Of a DNA stretch of 57,550 nucleotides, positions 21,518 to 38,338 are shown piece by piece. Source of the DNA: Burkholderiaceae bacterium (GTDB taxonomy: Bacteria > Pseudomonadota > Gammaproteobacteria > Burkholderiales > Burkholderiaceae_C); assembly GCA_023954035.1 (NCBI GenBank), contig JAMLIT010000023.1, forward strand, positions 1 to 57,550, written 5' to 3'. The number at the start of each line of letters is the position of its first letter. The stretch's first letter is position 1. The notes beneath the pieces are model-generated. The model was given only the letters and a program-made list of their open reading frames with translations. It was not told the DNA's origin and made no database searches. Position numbers and translations under genes: made by a program.

Positions 21518-23449
21518 ATGCGCTCACGCACCACGCTCACCACCAAGCTCCTGACCATGGGCATGGTGTTTTTGCTGGTCACGCTCAGCTCCATCAGCCT
21601 GACGCTCTGGGTCACCTGGAAGCTCGAAGGCGGCGCCGCGGCGGTCAACGAGGCCGGGCGCCTGCGCATGCGCACCATGCGCATGGCGCTGGCAGCGGAG
21701 AACGGTGCGCGCGACAAGCTGCTGGCCAATGCGCAAAAGATCGAAGCGAGCCTGGAGCTGCTGCGCACCGGCGACCCCGACCATCCGCTCTATGTTCCCT
21801 GGAGCGATGAGACCCGTGCGCGGTTTGACGAGGTGCGCAGCCAGTGGGCAGCGGTGCGCGAGGAGTGGCTGGCGCCGCAAGCGCCTCCGGTGCCGGTGCT
21901 GGTGGCGCGCGCCGACGCGGTGGCCGAAGTCATGAACCGGTTTGTCGACGCGATCGAAGTGCAGATTGCCCGCTGGACGGCCGCGCTGCACGTGCTGCAG
22001 CTTTTCATGATGGGCTTGACGCTTCTGGCCGCCTTTGGCGCCATGGTCGTGACTGGCCTGGTCGTCATCAATCCGGTAGCCCGCCTGCAGGAGGCGCTGT
22101 TGCAGATCCGCCAGGGCGCCCTGGGAACGCGGCTGCCGGTCGACACGGACGACGAGTTCGGCCAGCTCAACGAGGGCTTCAACCGCATGGCGCAGGCGCT
22201 GCAGGCTTCGCATGAGGACCTGGCGCTCAAGGTGCGCGAGAAAACGGCGAGCATCGAGGACAAGAACCAGCGCCTGTCTGCCCTGTACGAAGTGAGTGCG
22301 ATGGCCGCCCAGGCGCCCAATCTGCAGGCGCTGACGCAAGGTTTCGTGCGCCAGGTGCGCCGCGCCGCACACGCCGACGCCGCCGTGGTGCGCTGGTCCG
22401 ACGAAGGCAACGAGCACTACGTGATCCTGGCGGCCGACGGCCTGCCCCAGGCCACCATCGACCAGGAGCAATGCCTGCGTGCCAGCAACTGCTTTTGCGG
22501 CCAGACCCCGAGCCGGCCCGACGCGCGCGTGATTCCCATCAGCAGTGCAACGCCCATGGTGCTGCCGCATTGCCACGAAGCGGGCTACCAGACGCTGGTG
22601 GTTCTGCCCGTGATGGTGCACCAGCGCGTGCTGGCCGAACTGAACCTGTTTTTTCGCTCCAGCCTGGAGCTGTCTGCCGACATGCGCGAACTGCTCGAGG
22701 CCATGGTGCGCCACCTGGCCAGCAGCATGGAGGGACTGCGCGCGGCGGCGCTCGAGCGCGAGGGTGCGGTGGCCGAGGAGCGCGGCATGCTGGCGCGCGA
22801 GCTGCACGACTCGATTGCGCAGTCGCTCGCCTTCCTCAAGATCCAAACGCAGTTGCTGCGCGACGCCGTCAAAAAAGGCAACGACGCGGCGCGCGACCGC
22901 AGCATGGCCGAACTCGACGCCGGCGTGCGCGAGTGCTATGCCGACGTGCGCGAGCTGCTCGTGCACTTTCGCACCCGCGCCAGCGAAGAAGACATTGAGG
23001 AGGCGCTGCGCACCACGCTCTCCAAGTTCGGCCACCAGACGGGCATCGCCACCCACCTTGCCATGGAGGGCCACGGCCTGCCGCTGGACGCGGACGTGCA
23101 GATCCAGGTGCTGCACATGGTGCAGGAGGCGCTTTCCAACGTGCGCAAGCACGCACGGGCCACGCGGGTCGAGCTGCGCGTGCGACGCCATCCTGCGTGG
23201 CGCTTCGAGGTGCAGGACGACGGTATTGGGTTTGACGCCGGGCGCACCCTGTCCGCCGACTCCCTGCACGTGGGCCTGCGCATCCTGCACGAGCGCGCCG
23301 AAGGCATTGGCGCCCAGGTCCACGTGCGCTCCGCACCCGGCTTGGGCACGACGGTCTGCATCGAGCTGCCGCACCCTGCCTCCGCGGCGCCCGCCGGTCC
23401 GGTATCCGAACTGCCTGCGCCGAAGGTGCCCGCGTGGAGTTCAGTGTGA
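21518..23449 (+). CDS. narX: Nitrate/nitrite sensor histidine kinase NarX
   Basis: Membrane sensor kinase of 643 residues. Order: TM1 (about 10-32), periplasmic helical sensor with the nitrate-binding P-box NEAGRLRMRTMRMAL (43-57), TM2 (about 158-183), HAMP, a GAF-like linker with a cysteine group (QCLRASNCFCGQ), then a HisKA_3/HATPase module. The phosphorylated histidine is in RELHDSIAQS (His430); N-box QEALSNVRKHA and G-box DDGIGFD follow. It should sense nitrate/nitrite and phosphorylate NarL, encoded directly downstream with a four-base overlap. It is divergent from the ChaN-like gene with a 63-base gap. Confidence 0.95.
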   Translation: MRSRTTLTTKLLTMGMVFLLVTLSSISLTLWVTWKLEGGAAAVNEAGRLRMRTMRMALAAENGARDKLLANAQKIEASLELLRTGDPDHPLYVPWSDETRARFDEVRSQWAAVREEWLAPQAPPVPVLVARADAVAEVMNRFVDAIEVQIARWTAALHVLQLFMMGLTLLAAFGAMVVTGLVVINPVARLQEALLQIRQGALGTRLPVDTDDEFGQLNEGFNRMAQALQASHEDLALKVREKTASIEDKNQRLSALYEVSAMAAQAPNLQALTQGFVRQVRRAAHADAAVVRWSDEGNEHYVILAADGLPQATIDQEQCLRASNCFCGQTPSRPDARVIPISSATPMVLPHCHEAGYQTLVVLPVMVHQRVLAELNLFFRSSLELSADMRELLEAMVRHLASSMEGLRAAALEREGAVAEERGMLARELHDSIAQSLAFLKIQTQLLRDAVKKGNDAARDRSMAELDAGVRECYADVRELLVHFRTRASEEDIEEALRTTLSKFGHQTGIATHLAMEGHGLPLDADVQIQVLHMVQEALSNVRKHARATRVELRVRRHPAWRFEVQDDGIGFDAGRTLSADSLHVGLRILHERAEGIGAQVHVRSAPGLGTTVCIELPHPASAAPAGPVSELPAPKVPAWSSV

Positions 23450-24165
23450 ACCCAGCCCGCGCCATCACGGTTTTCGTCGTTGACGACCACAACCTGTTCC
23501 GTCGCGGCCTGGTGGCGTTGCTGTCGCAGGACGAGGGCCTCTGCGTCGTTGGCGAGGCGGGCGATGCGGGCGAGGCATTGCGCCTGGTGCCCGGCTTGCG
23601 GCCCGACGTCATCCTGCTGGACAACCACCTGCCCGGCGTACTCGGGGTGGACGCGGTGCGCGGTCTGCGCGCGGCGTCGCCTGCGAGCCGCGTGCTGATG
23701 CTCACCGTGAGCGAGGATGCGCAGGACCTGGCGGCTGCCCTGCGCAACGGCGCCCAGGGCTACCTGCTCAAGACCATCGACGGCGACCTGCTGGGCCAGG
23801 CGATTGCCCGCGCGGCGGCTGGCGAACCGGTGGTCAGCCCGGAGCTGATGGGCAAGCTGGTGGCGGCTTTTCAATCGCAAGGCGGGCCTCCTCCCCATGC
23901 GCATCGGGCGCCCGCTGAGCCGGTGGAAACGACCGCGCCAGACGCGATGGCAGCGGCTGCGCCGCCGGCGCTCTCCCCGCGCGAGGAAGACGTGCTGCGC
24001 GAGATTGCGCTGGGCGCGAGCAACAAGGAAATCGCGCGCACGCTGGACATCGCCGAGACGACGGTAAAAATTCACGTCCAGCACATCCTGCGCAAGCTGG
24101 GGCTCAACTCCCGCGTGCAGGCGGCCGTGTACGCCACCGACCGCACCCGCGGCGACAGCGCATAA
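23446..24165 (+). CDS. narL: Nitrate response regulator NarL
   Basis: Two-domain response regulator of 239 residues, partner of NarX. The receiver has the acidic pair VDDH (13-14), phospho-acceptor Asp59 in LLDNHLPG and the conserved Lys in YLLKTI. After an Ala/Pro-rich linker (about 145-175) comes a LuxR/NarL helix-turn-helix (SPREEDVLREIALGASNKEI, then TVKIHVQHILRKLG). The GTG at 23446 overlaps the narX stop as GTGA and has GGAG at a good distance; an in-frame GTG at 23434 is the alternative. It likely activates the nar genes downstream when nitrate is present. Confidence 0.94.
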   Translation: MNPARAITVFVVDDHNLFRRGLVALLSQDEGLCVVGEAGDAGEALRLVPGLRPDVILLDNHLPGVLGVDAVRGLRAASPASRVLMLTVSEDAQDLAAALRNGAQGYLLKTIDGDLLGQAIARAAAGEPVVSPELMGKLVAAFQSQGGPPPHAHRAPAEPVETTAPDAMAAAAPPALSPREEDVLREIALGASNKEIARTLDIAETTVKIHVQHILRKLGLNSRVQAAVYATDRTRGDSA

Positions 24166-24180
24166 AGCCGACTCCGGTGC

Positions 24181-24200
24181 AGTAGTTCTTTCGAACTACT
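24181..24200 (+). terminator. Perfect inverted repeat after narL
   Basis: AGTAGTTC-TTTC-GAACTACT forms an 8-bp perfect stem 15 bases past the narL stop. No U-tract follows, so it could be a weak terminator or RNA-stability hairpin, or a palindromic operator upstream of narK. No clear FNR-type TTGAT-N4-ATCAA site was found in the 152 bases before narK. Confidence 0.45.
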
Positions 24201-24317
24201 CCCCCGGGCAAACCCTCGTTCTTTTTCCCTGGGCCACCCCTCCGCCCGAAGGATAGGCAGCGGGCGGCGCCTGCGCGACCATCGCTCCACTCATTCAAAA
24301 GAGAGGAAAAGCGCAAA

Positions 24318-34980: not shown

Positions 34981-35667
34981 ATGCCAGACGACGACTTGCT
35001 TGACCGCCTGCGCAGCTTCAAGCGAGACGCCTTTCCGCAGTACCGTCAGCAGTTCAAGTCGCTGGTGGAAGGCGGCCAGCATCCGACCACCTTGTTCATC
35101 GGCTGCTCGGACTCGCGCCTGCTGCCCTACCTGTTGACCGGAGCGGGGCCGGGGGAACTGTTCCTGGTGCGCAACGTCGGTGCGTTCGTGCCGCCCTACG
35201 ACGGTTCCTATGGTCACCACGGCACTGCGGCGGCCATCGAGTTTGCGGTGCTGAACCTGCACGTCAGCCGCATCGTGGTGTGCGGGCACAGCCATTGCGG
35301 CGCGATCAGGGCTTTGTACGAAGGGGTGCCGCCCGAAGCGCACAACCTGCAGCGCTGGCTGGAACTGGGCCGGGATGCAGCGCTTCCGGTCCAGCCCTGT
35401 GAGGAAGCATTTCGCCGCACCGAGCAGCGCGCCGTGGTGCTGCAACTGGGCCGCTTGATGGAATTTCCCATGGTGCGCAGTCGTGTGCTGGCCGGTGAGA
35501 TCAGCTTGCACGGTTGGCACTACGTGATCGAAGAGGGCGAGGTGCACGTCTTTGACGTAGAGACTGGACGTTTTCTTGCGGCCTCGGTGGCCACGCACAG
35601 TGGTACCGGACCCTACGCTCCCTACGTCGAACACGACGGGCAGGTTCTATCGGATGAAAACCCTTAG
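34981..35667 (+). CDS. Beta-class carbonic anhydrase
   Basis: Zinc enzyme of 228 residues interconverting CO2 and bicarbonate. Zn ligands and catalytic dyad are visible in IGCSDSRLLP (Cys and the Asp-Arg dyad near residues 41-47) and VCGHSHCGAI (His and Cys near 101-108). GELFLVRNVGAFVPP and the C-terminal LHGWHYVIEEGEVHVFD are also standard for the family. It lies 17 bases after the parvulin gene, at the end of the apparent nar transcript. A role in bicarbonate supply or pH balance during anaerobic growth is plausible but inferred. Confidence 0.92.
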   Translation: MPDDDLLDRLRSFKRDAFPQYRQQFKSLVEGGQHPTTLFIGCSDSRLLPYLLTGAGPGELFLVRNVGAFVPPYDGSYGHHGTAAAIEFAVLNLHVSRIVVCGHSHCGAIRALYEGVPPEAHNLQRWLELGRDAALPVQPCEEAFRRTEQRAVVLQLGRLMEFPMVRSRVLAGEISLHGWHYVIEEGEVHVFDVETGRFLAASVATHSGTGPYAPYVEHDGQVLSDENP

Positions 35668-35908
35668 TCCGGTAGAAAATTGTAAAAATCTTCTTTGCAA
35701 ACAGTGCGCGCTAAGTGCGCGCCACACTTGAATTCGCCCGCTGACTGCCGCGGGAACTAGCACAAATGGTGAAACCCGTCAGGCACGCCGGCAAGTGCCG
35801 AAAGGGCTAAACTGGCGTCGCTTTCCCAGCCCACTTTTTCCCCGGTGGGTGGACTTCGCCCGACGCGCCTTGCGGCGCGTTTTCGTCACATCACCTACGG
35901 ACTCCACC
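35668..35908 (+). promoter_or_regulatory. Structured leader of nrdJ, candidate cis-regulatory RNA
   Basis: The 241 bases before nrdJ hold a series of stems: CCCGC/GCGGG (35737-35754), GGCAC/GTGCC (35782-35799), CCCAC/GTGGG (35830-35849) and a strong terminator-like hairpin (35863-35883). Between the first two lies an unpaired A-rich stretch (ACTAGCACAAATGGTGAAAC). A noncoding nrdJ-associated RNA motif has been described in the literature; whether this is that motif I cannot test here. It does not show the B12-box of classic cobalamin riboswitches. A promoter may lie near 35675-35710. Confidence 0.5.
35863..35883 (+). terminator. Terminator-like hairpin in the nrdJ leader
   Basis: ACGCGCC-TTGC-GGCGCGT is a perfect 7-bp GC-rich stem followed by TTT (TTTT counting the last arm base). 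It ends about 25 bases before the nrdJ start, so it is placed to attenuate nrdJ rather than to end the carbonic anhydrase gene 195 bases upstream. Confidence 0.6.
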
Positions 35909-38338
35909 ATGAAGAGAGAAGACCTGGGCCGCGCGCAAGACGTCACGGCCATTCAGCCCATCAGCCAAGATGTACTGCAGGAAAAATATCTCAAACCGGG
36001 GGAAACCAGCGTCGACGAGCTGTTTCGGCGCGTTGCACGGGCGCTGGCTTCGGTCGAGGCAGAAGCTGAGCGGGAGAAATACGAAGCGCTGTTCCTGGCC
36101 AACATGCGGGCGGGCGCGATTGGCGCCGGACGCATCATGAGCGCGGCCGGCACGGACATCCAGGCGACGCTGATCAATTGTTTCGTGCAGCCCGTGGGCG
36201 ACTGCATCCAGGGCGTGGACGACGAGGGATTTCCCGGTATTTACGAGGCACTGCGCGAAGCGGCCGAAACGATGCGGCGCGGCGGTGGCGTGGGCTATGA
36301 CTTTTCGCGCATCCGGCCGCGCGGCGCCGAGGTCAAAGGCACTCACTCCATGGCCTCGGGGCCGTGCAGCTACATCAACGTATTCGATCAATCGTGCTCT
36401 ACGGTGGAGAGCGCGGGCGCGCGCCGCGGAGCCCAAATGGGCGTGCTGCGCATCGACCACCCCGACGTGATGGATTTCATCACCGCCAAGCGCACGCCCG
36501 GACGCTGGAACAACTTCAACGTCTCGGTGGGCGTGAGCGACGCCTTTGTCCAGGCGGTGCTGGATGACCAACCCTGGGAACTCGTCCACAAGGCGCGCCC
36601 TGGGGCGACGGTCATGGCGAAGGGGGCCTACCAGCGCGCAGACGGTCGGTGGGTCTATGAGAGCCTGCCGGCGCGTGACCTGTGGGACACGATCATGAAG
36701 TCTACCTACGACTTCGCCGAGCCGGGCATCCTGTTCCTGGACCAGATCAACACCGACAACAACCTGCACTACTGCGAGGACATCAACGCCACCAATCCGT
36801 GTGGCGAGCAGCCTTTGCCCTCGTACGGCTGCTGCGATCTGGGCCCCATCATCCTGACGCGTTTCGTGCGCCACCCCTTCGGTTTCGATGGCGTGCCGGC
36901 GTTCGACTTTGCCGCCTTCGAAAAGTCCGTAGCGCTCCAGGTGCGGGCGCTGGACAACGTGCTGGACGTCACCTTCTGGCCGCTGCCCCAGCAACGCGAC
37001 GAAGCCCACGCCAAGCGCCGCATCGGCGTTGGCTTTACTGGAATGGGCAATACGCTGGCCATGCTCTGTCTGCGTTACGACAAGGAAGAAGGCCGTGCCA
37101 TGGCTGCGCGCATTGCCGAGCACATGCGCAATGCCGCATATTCGGCGTCGGTGGATCTGGCGGTCGAAAAGGGCGCGTTTCCCAAATTCGACGCTGACGG
37201 CTATCTTGCAAAGGGTACTTTTGCCAGCCGCCTTCCCCAGCCCATCCAGGCGCGCATCCGCGCGCATGGCATCCGAAACAGCCATCTGCTCTCCATTGCA
37301 CCCACCGGGACGGTGAGCCTGGCCTTTGCCGACAATGCCTCCAACGGCATCGAGCCGCCGTTCTCCTGGATGTACAAGCGCCGCAAGCGCGAGTCCGATG
37401 GTTCCATGGCCGAATACGCAGTGGAAGACCATGCCTGGCGGCTGTATCGCGAACTGGGCGGTGACGTCAACCAACTGCCCGACTACTTCGTCTCGGCGCT
37501 GGAAATGTCGGCCGAGAGCCACATTGCGATGATGAAGACGGTGCAGCCTTTCGTGGATACGGCCATCTCGAAGACGGTCAACATCCCGGCCGACTACCCT
37601 TACGAAGATTTCAAGGGTCTGTACCTGCAGGCATGGCGTGCCAAGCTCAAGGGCCTGGCGACCTATCGGCCCAACAGCATTCTCGGTTCGGTGCTGGAGA
37701 CGCACGCTGCCGACGATCAGGCGCAGCAAGCGGCGCAAGCGGTTCCCGTGGATCCGATGCGCACCGTCATCGAAAGTCGGCCCAAGGGCGCGCTGTCGGC
37801 GGTGGCCGAAAAAGTGGATTACTGGACGCAGGAGGGGCAAAAGCGTCTGTATCTCGTGGTTTCCTTCCTGCCCGTGCAGGACCCGGAAACGGGGGGACTC
37901 ATTGACCGTGCCATTGAATTTTTCATGCCTGTGGGGCAGAGCGGCGAGTCGCAGCAGTGGGTGACGTCGAGCATGCGCCTGCTTTCGCTGGCTGCGCGCG
38001 GCGGCTTTCTTGAGCGGGCCCTCAGCGACATGCGCAAGGTGGCCTGGGACCGCGGCCCCGTGCGGCTGGGAACGTACCAAAAGGCGGACGGCACCTTGGT
38101 GCCCATGTGGCACGACTCCGAAGTCGCTGCCATCGCCTACGCCATTCAAAATATCCTGGCGCGGCGCGCCCGGCCCTTGGCCGGCGACGAAGATCTCTTG
38201 GCCGGCGAAAGCGCGCTCAGCGCCGTCTCGCCCGTCATGGCCGGCAAAAAGTGCAGTGAATGCGGGGCCCACGCCATGATTCGCAAGGACGGCTGCGACT
38301 ACTGCACCCAGTGCGGCCATCTGGGCAGCTGCGGCTGA
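35909..38338 (+). CDS. nrdJ: Adenosylcobalamin-dependent (class II) ribonucleotide reductase
   Basis: Oxygen-independent ribonucleoside-diphosphate reductase of 809 residues using adenosylcobalamin as radical source. Motifs: [11 protein letters not shown] (substrate-site cysteine), the glycine-rich [28 protein letters not shown] with the active-site Cys/Glu, and [16 protein letters not shown]. The C-terminus has a zinc-ribbon-like CSECG plus CDYCTQCG, common in NrdJ. The ATG at 35909 is chosen; the frame extends 38 codons upstream through the terminator hairpin without homology. No nrdA/B genes are adjacent. It suits DNA synthesis under the anaerobic conditions served by the nar genes upstream. 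Confidence 0.95.

Follow-up and report, generated by a model that had tools for sequence, protein, structure and literature searches.

Class II ribonucleotide reductases (RNRs) require adenosylcobalamin, and several described systems come close to the DNA found upstream of the nrdJ gene analyzed here. The nrdJ RNA motif (RF03034), which a Streptomyces lividans study places upstream of nrdJ (PMC8079986), shares that position with the leader of our locus; it differs in that this leader has no match to it and that it exceeds the cut-off in none of 26 genomes of the same genus. The cobalamin riboswitch (RF00174) is linked to the locus by pathway only: the leader contains none, and the copies of the genus lie elsewhere. 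Stem-loops in 5'UTRs that stabilize mRNA have been reviewed (PMC7509114). Stabilizers of the ompA type have a hairpin near the 5' end whose sequence is free to vary, as our leader would have at its predicted 5' end; they differ from our locus in that the start here is predicted from sequence and the first hairpin is rivalled by another fold. NrdR-controlled nrd promoters, such as that of nrdJ in Pseudomonas aeruginosa (PMC4409342), likewise join an RNR promoter to upstream regulatory DNA, whereas our window contains no site within three mismatches of the NrdR consensus. Among the papers listed by our literature searches on nrdJ, no title or abstract opening describes the present leader, and a search for a class II RNR promoter in Betaproteobacteria gave no paper.

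The window is the whole stretch of 57,550 nucleotides of contig JAMLIT010000023.1 from a Burkholderiaceae bacterium; nrdJ and the leader features described below lie on its forward strand. According to codon-usage gene calls, nrdJ starts with the ATG at 35,909 and ends at 38,338, encoding 809 aa with domains PF02867 and PF00317. We take its product, named NrdJ from homology to database records and from an earlier note on this DNA, to be a class II (B12-dependent) RNR. The gene is a member of a nitrate-respiration cluster (narGHJI, PPIase, carbonic anhydrase, nrdJ, NnrS): by gene calls and domain search, the genes for the alpha and beta subunits of nitrate reductase lie upstream, the carbonic anhydrase gene (34,981-35,667, PF00484) is the upstream neighbor, and nrdJ is followed by genes for NnrS (PF05940) and for a member of the nitroreductase family. 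The earlier note had regarded positions 35,668-35,908 as one structured leader of four stems with the layout of an attenuating riboswitch or RNA thermometer, and had inferred that it senses a B12 form, a nucleotide or a related signal. In place of this proposed B12 riboswitch, our analysis puts a model in which the oxygen-independent RNR has a promoter and a short leader.

NrdJ loci were collected from the best 80 of 480 named genome contigs encoding a relative and from 26 genomes of the window's genus. The N terminus was located in 109 sequences including the window, 89 of which have distinct upstream DNA (an N-terminal piece from G309 was left out). Fifteen distinct upstream regions, all matching genomes of the genus, share the motif [CG]GCTA(A/C)ACT and can be aligned. 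Because these leaders were chosen by the motif, its presence in 15/15 holds by construction, which is not true of its steady place and its flanks. Within up to 400 nt of upstream DNA, the motif is absent from ten other distinct leaders of the genus (L014-L020 and L113-L115) and from the other 64 distinct nrdJ leaders. The leader of G225 is the closest to the window's, with 77% identity over 199 nt. For genome background, we used 191 upstream regions (gaps of at least 90 nt) taken from 20 stretches and the window. The carbonic anhydrase gene lies upstream of nrdJ in 12 of the 15 aligned leaders; it was not found there in L009, L012 and L107, all of which still have the leader element before nrdJ, and the leader therefore goes with nrdJ.

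Across the aligned regions, the block CGCTA(A/C)ACTG stands out, and [CG]GCTA(A/C)ACT sits 98-114 nt before the ATG in all 15 leaders. The window's version includes TAAACT at 35,808-35,813, a probable sigma70-type -10 box judging by the conserved motif and a strand bias. TA[AC]ACT occurs 15 times (345/Mb) in sense orientation within 250 nt upstream of genes in the window's own genome, compared with two antisense upstream occurrences (65/Mb) and two in coding DNA (3/Mb), while two control hexamers of scrambled order were not more frequent in sense than in antisense; such a strand bias is to be expected of a sigma70 -10 box. A consensus promoter scan found no promoter, and no FNR-like site with two or fewer mismatches to the consensus occurs in 35,640-35,908. 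The best match to a -35 hexamer over spacers of 15-19 nt is 3/6, and since no -35 element is recognizable, the promoter is probably activator-dependent. An AT-rich block found in other members of the genus, TAACAAWAWWTTACA, matches five places in the 26 genomes, all of them preceding an nrdJ start by 183-192 nt (G294, G141, G314, G315 and G319), and is possibly an activator site.

Counting 7 nt past the -10 box, we infer a transcription start near 35,820, which would give a 5'UTR of about 89 nt (35,820-35,908). The DNA at 35,668-35,800, with the upstream stems of the earlier note, would then be promoter and presumed regulatory DNA, so that most of what had been called a leader is probably promoter DNA rather than RNA. 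By the terms of the earlier note, its reading would be refuted by a start downstream of 35,863, which would leave the terminator-like hairpin untranscribed. The predicted start lies upstream of this hairpin (hairpin 2), so it would be transcribed.

Folding results agree with this division. Folded as a whole, the 241 nt reach -86.8 kcal/mol (z -2.22, 6/200 shuffles as good), and the predicted UTR alone is ordinary, as 45% of the 191 own-genome upstream regions have a minimum free energy (MFE) as low. Consensus folds were computed against column shuffles for two subgroups of the aligned leaders, the window's (five leaders) and a second one (ten leaders), to which TAACAAWAWWTTACA belongs. Between the -10 box and the ATG, both exceed their shuffles, with z -3.11 (1/200 as low) in the window's subgroup and z -2.70 (2/200) in the second. 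The 109 nt through the -10 box have no excess consensus structure in either (z -0.85, 38/200, and z -0.96, 20/200, respectively), so that four stems within one RNA leader are not supported. All 15 leaders folded jointly yield no consensus structure (z 0.13). What the leaders have in common is hairpin structure past the presumed start and, ahead of the ATG, a stretch with ACGGA or a close variant of it. The consensus of the second subgroup contains hairpin 1 and hairpin 2; that of the window's subgroup contains hairpin 2 and a long-range helix, without hairpin 1.

Covariation, which the earlier note had named as a test of its stems, is modest overall in these alignments and differs between the subgroups. 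Five leaders of the second subgroup have 3/16 pairs changed on both sides (25/500 shuffles have as many; 11/500 by covariation score), and all three lie among the nine pairs of hairpin 1. Four leaders of the window's subgroup have a single such pair, in hairpin 2, a number at shuffle level (as many in 110/500 and 148/500 shuffles in two runs), and give no covariation support for hairpin 1 or the long-range helix.

Hairpin 2 (35,863-35,880) bears out the earlier description of a perfect 7-bp GC hairpin with a T-run before nrdJ: its arms ACGCGCC (35,863-35,869) and GGCGCGT (35,874-35,880) are 100% complementary around the loop TTGC, and its stem ends 28 bases before the ATG. The TTTT run occupies 35,880-35,883, its first T being the last base of the stem. 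This hairpin appears in all folds examined for the window's subgroup. Its d'Aubenton-Carafa score of 17.5 ranks 4th of the 191 upstream regions and is equalled in 2/200 shuffles. The score is a poor terminator detector in this genome because only 2/22 convergent 3' regions score above zero, and a terminator consensus scan requiring at least five T in eight found none in 35,000-36,200. As a terminator, hairpin 2 is middling. Perfect stems of at least 7 bp occur in the last 89 nt before the start in 18/191 upstream regions, and together with a T-rich tail in 2/191, nrdJ being included in both counts. Over the last 110 nt, such stems are present in 8/15 motif leaders vs 18/169 other upstream regions, and in 3/10 other nrdJ leaders of the genus and 6/64 further nrdJ leaders, relatives not being independent in these counts. 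In L007, a 7-bp hairpin of mostly different pairs lies at -45, the window's at -46. In L018, a leader from an uncultured Simplicispira that lacks the -10-like motif shared by the window and its group, an inverted repeat of 23 perfect base pairs around a 4-base loop (L018:2901-2950) lies 51-100 nt before the nrdJ start.

Hairpin 1 (GCCCAC/GTGGGT, 35,829-35,850) has only six pairs in the window and begins about 10 nt past the predicted start; where it is seen in other leaders, it begins about 3-10 nt past the predicted start of each. It is rivalled by a long-range helix (35,845-35,852 with 35,891-35,898) that encloses hairpin 2 and uses the 3' arm of hairpin 1. In the window's leader, the hairpin-1 fold has -28.2 kcal/mol vs -28.7 kcal/mol for the long-range fold, and the MFE structure contains the long-range helix. 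Hairpin 1 is uncertain in the window because the subgroup consensus lacks it and the two folds are nearly equal. The hairpin-1 fold is better by about 1.4-2.4 kcal/mol in the relatives L003 (2.3), L006 (1.4) and L008 (2.4), and the free MFE structures of L003 and L006 add a third helix over the ribosome-binding site (RBS). The conserved stretch before the ATG (35,891-35,908) contains a weak Shine-Dalgarno-like ACGGA, with ACGGG or ACAGG in other leaders. It could pair within the window either as 35,848-35,858 with 35,898-35,908 (inverted pair I2) or through the long-range helix. In the window, pairing of the RBS exceeds that in shuffles (0.46 vs 0.66 ± 0.07), with L003, L006, L013 and L094 tending in the same direction, and the RBS is more open than in shuffles in L007, L008, L009 and L098. 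RBS pairing, as a sequestering switch or thermometer would need, is possible in the window but mixed over the 15 leaders and not conserved among them.

Searches against Rfam, which the earlier note had proposed for the nrdJ motif and the cobalamin models, returned nothing in the leader. The window has no match, and 35,300-36,000 has none even at E≤5. Sixteen nrdJ loci have no match at the gathering score. A lax search (E≤1) of six loci gave matches only at L009:8153-8248 and L007:4004-4089, away from the leaders. At L009:8153-8248, miRNA precursor models match both strands below their cut-offs, probably owing to a long inverted repeat. For RF03034, the genome of the window gave no match up to E 10 among 117 candidates scored. 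RF00174 was found in 25/26 genomes of the genus, with a single copy in the window's genome on another contig (G000:C13:47109-47349) and none among 65 candidates scored in G225; no listed match lies at an nrdJ leader. Classical cobalamin riboswitches are thus in use in the genus, although not at this locus.

Covariance models of our own were also used, R1 from the window's four leaders and R2 from five second-subgroup leaders. The four best matches of R2 in 168 kb are the nrdJ UTRs of L091, L007, L010 and L094 (E 0.0001-0.004), followed by weak ones to the window (E 0.29, partial), L008 (0.14) and L006 (1.3); L009, L107 and L003 are not among the matches listed for 18 sources. R1 matches L007 (E 0.0037) and, weakly, L012, L011, L082 and L013 (0.04-3.2) in the 18 sources. 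Off-target matches reach such E-values genome-wide (R2 at G304:C2:1915330, E 0.0028; R1 at G307:C41:112645, E 0.015), and the shared sequence before the ATG contributes part of the scores. With 150 candidates scored per genome, strong matches in the 26 genomes occur only at the source nrdJ leaders of each model, the weaker ones being a mix of nrdJ leaders and other places. A regulon sharing this leader was rejected on these matches, and a BLAST search of the leader against its own genome finds only itself.

We tentatively explain these data by a structured 5'UTR of genus-level distribution that needs no ligand and, under the promoter, adjusts mRNA stability or read-through, with weak termination in some species. 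The -10 box would direct transcription from about 35,820, probably with an activator, and any oxygen or nitrate control would sit at the promoter. The 89-nt leader would fold locally, with hairpin 2 firm and hairpin 1 exchanging with the long-range helix, and structure near the 5' end may shield nrdJ mRNA from 5'-end-dependent RNase E decay without any ligand. Hairpin 2 and its short T-run would act in the window's own clade at most as a weak, constitutive terminator or pause. Judged from sequence comparisons, the conserved -10-like block, the hexamer strand bias, the fold excess confined to the UTR, the double-changed pairs and the linkage to nrdJ make this the most likely reading. Against it stand the missing -35 element, the ordinary energy of the UTR, the weak covariation in the window's subgroup, the uncertain, six-pair hairpin 1 of the window and the lack of a joint structure in 15 leaders. 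R1 and R2, moreover, cross-find only part of the other subgroup, at E-values that off-target matches also reach. If the hairpins matter, they are a small example of structure kept despite sequence turnover within one genus. At a rather low probability, only the promoter is conserved and the hairpins are an inconsequential product of GC-rich DNA, alike in relatives by descent: the commonness of UTR energies this low, the few independent sequences and the weak covariation in the window's subgroup would fit, whereas a consensus-fold excess found in two subgroups and not upstream, and the second subgroup's double-changed pairs in hairpin 1, argue otherwise.

Regulated attenuation, in which hairpin 2 and the T-run form an intrinsic terminator and a factor, the nucleotide pool or RNA polymerase pausing sets read-through, seems unlikely to a similar degree. 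The high rank of the hairpin 2 score and scores above zero in 7/15 leaders (three owing to hairpin 2, four to hairpin 1) speak for it, but 8/15 leaders score below zero and the T-run follows hairpin 2 in only 4/15. For the two inverted pairs that could compete with its arms, I4 and I15, the 5' arm falls upstream of the predicted start, and I15 is by eye not kept in L003; an inverted-repeat search found no antiterminator pairing inside the predicted transcript. The sensing leader of the earlier note, whether an adenosylcobalamin or nucleotide riboswitch or a thermometer, would in the window alternate between two forms, one with hairpin 1 and the other with the long-range helix beside the RBS. 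The cofactor need of the enzyme, the paired RBS of the window and four relatives and the two near-equal folds favor such a switch. We nevertheless regard it as very improbable, given the Rfam results, consensus folds in which no invariant unpaired aptamer-like core is seen, the open RBS of four other leaders and a long-range helix that lacks covariation and is the poorer fold in L003, L006 and L008. Of the earlier interpretation, a structured 5'UTR tied to nrdJ and shared among relatives is supported, as is a terminator-like hairpin among the nearest ones; the proposed sensing is not. A bolder reading, to which we give little credence, is a genus-restricted cis-regulatory RNA outside Rfam, in which fast-changing hairpins after an activator-dependent start would set nrdJ expression; the window's clade would have a bistable leader, in which the 3' arm of hairpin 1 pairs either within that hairpin or with bases flanking the ribosome site, and hairpin 2 and its T-run would serve as a stop.

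The RNR genes of the genus gave some further observations. The class I RNR small subunit (PF00268) is present in 22/26 genomes of the genus and was not found in the window's own genome (G000), from which it may simply be missing because this genome is 89% complete. Three genomes have an RF00174 match 0.1-2.8 kb from a low-scoring PF00268 match (60-93 bits): G305 (C9:20493-20715 and 23438-24280), G314 (C47:4763-4978 and 1162-2004) and G300 (C30:162358-162576 and 162713-163348), an arrangement that hints at an alternative RNR under B12 control. The NrdJ proteins of G309, G310, G311 and G318 (L108-L111, L113-L115) match in two pieces with a break near residue 294-299; the pieces lie on two contigs in G310, and in G309, G311 and G318 both are part of a single open frame of more than 1200 aa, the pattern to be expected from an intein.
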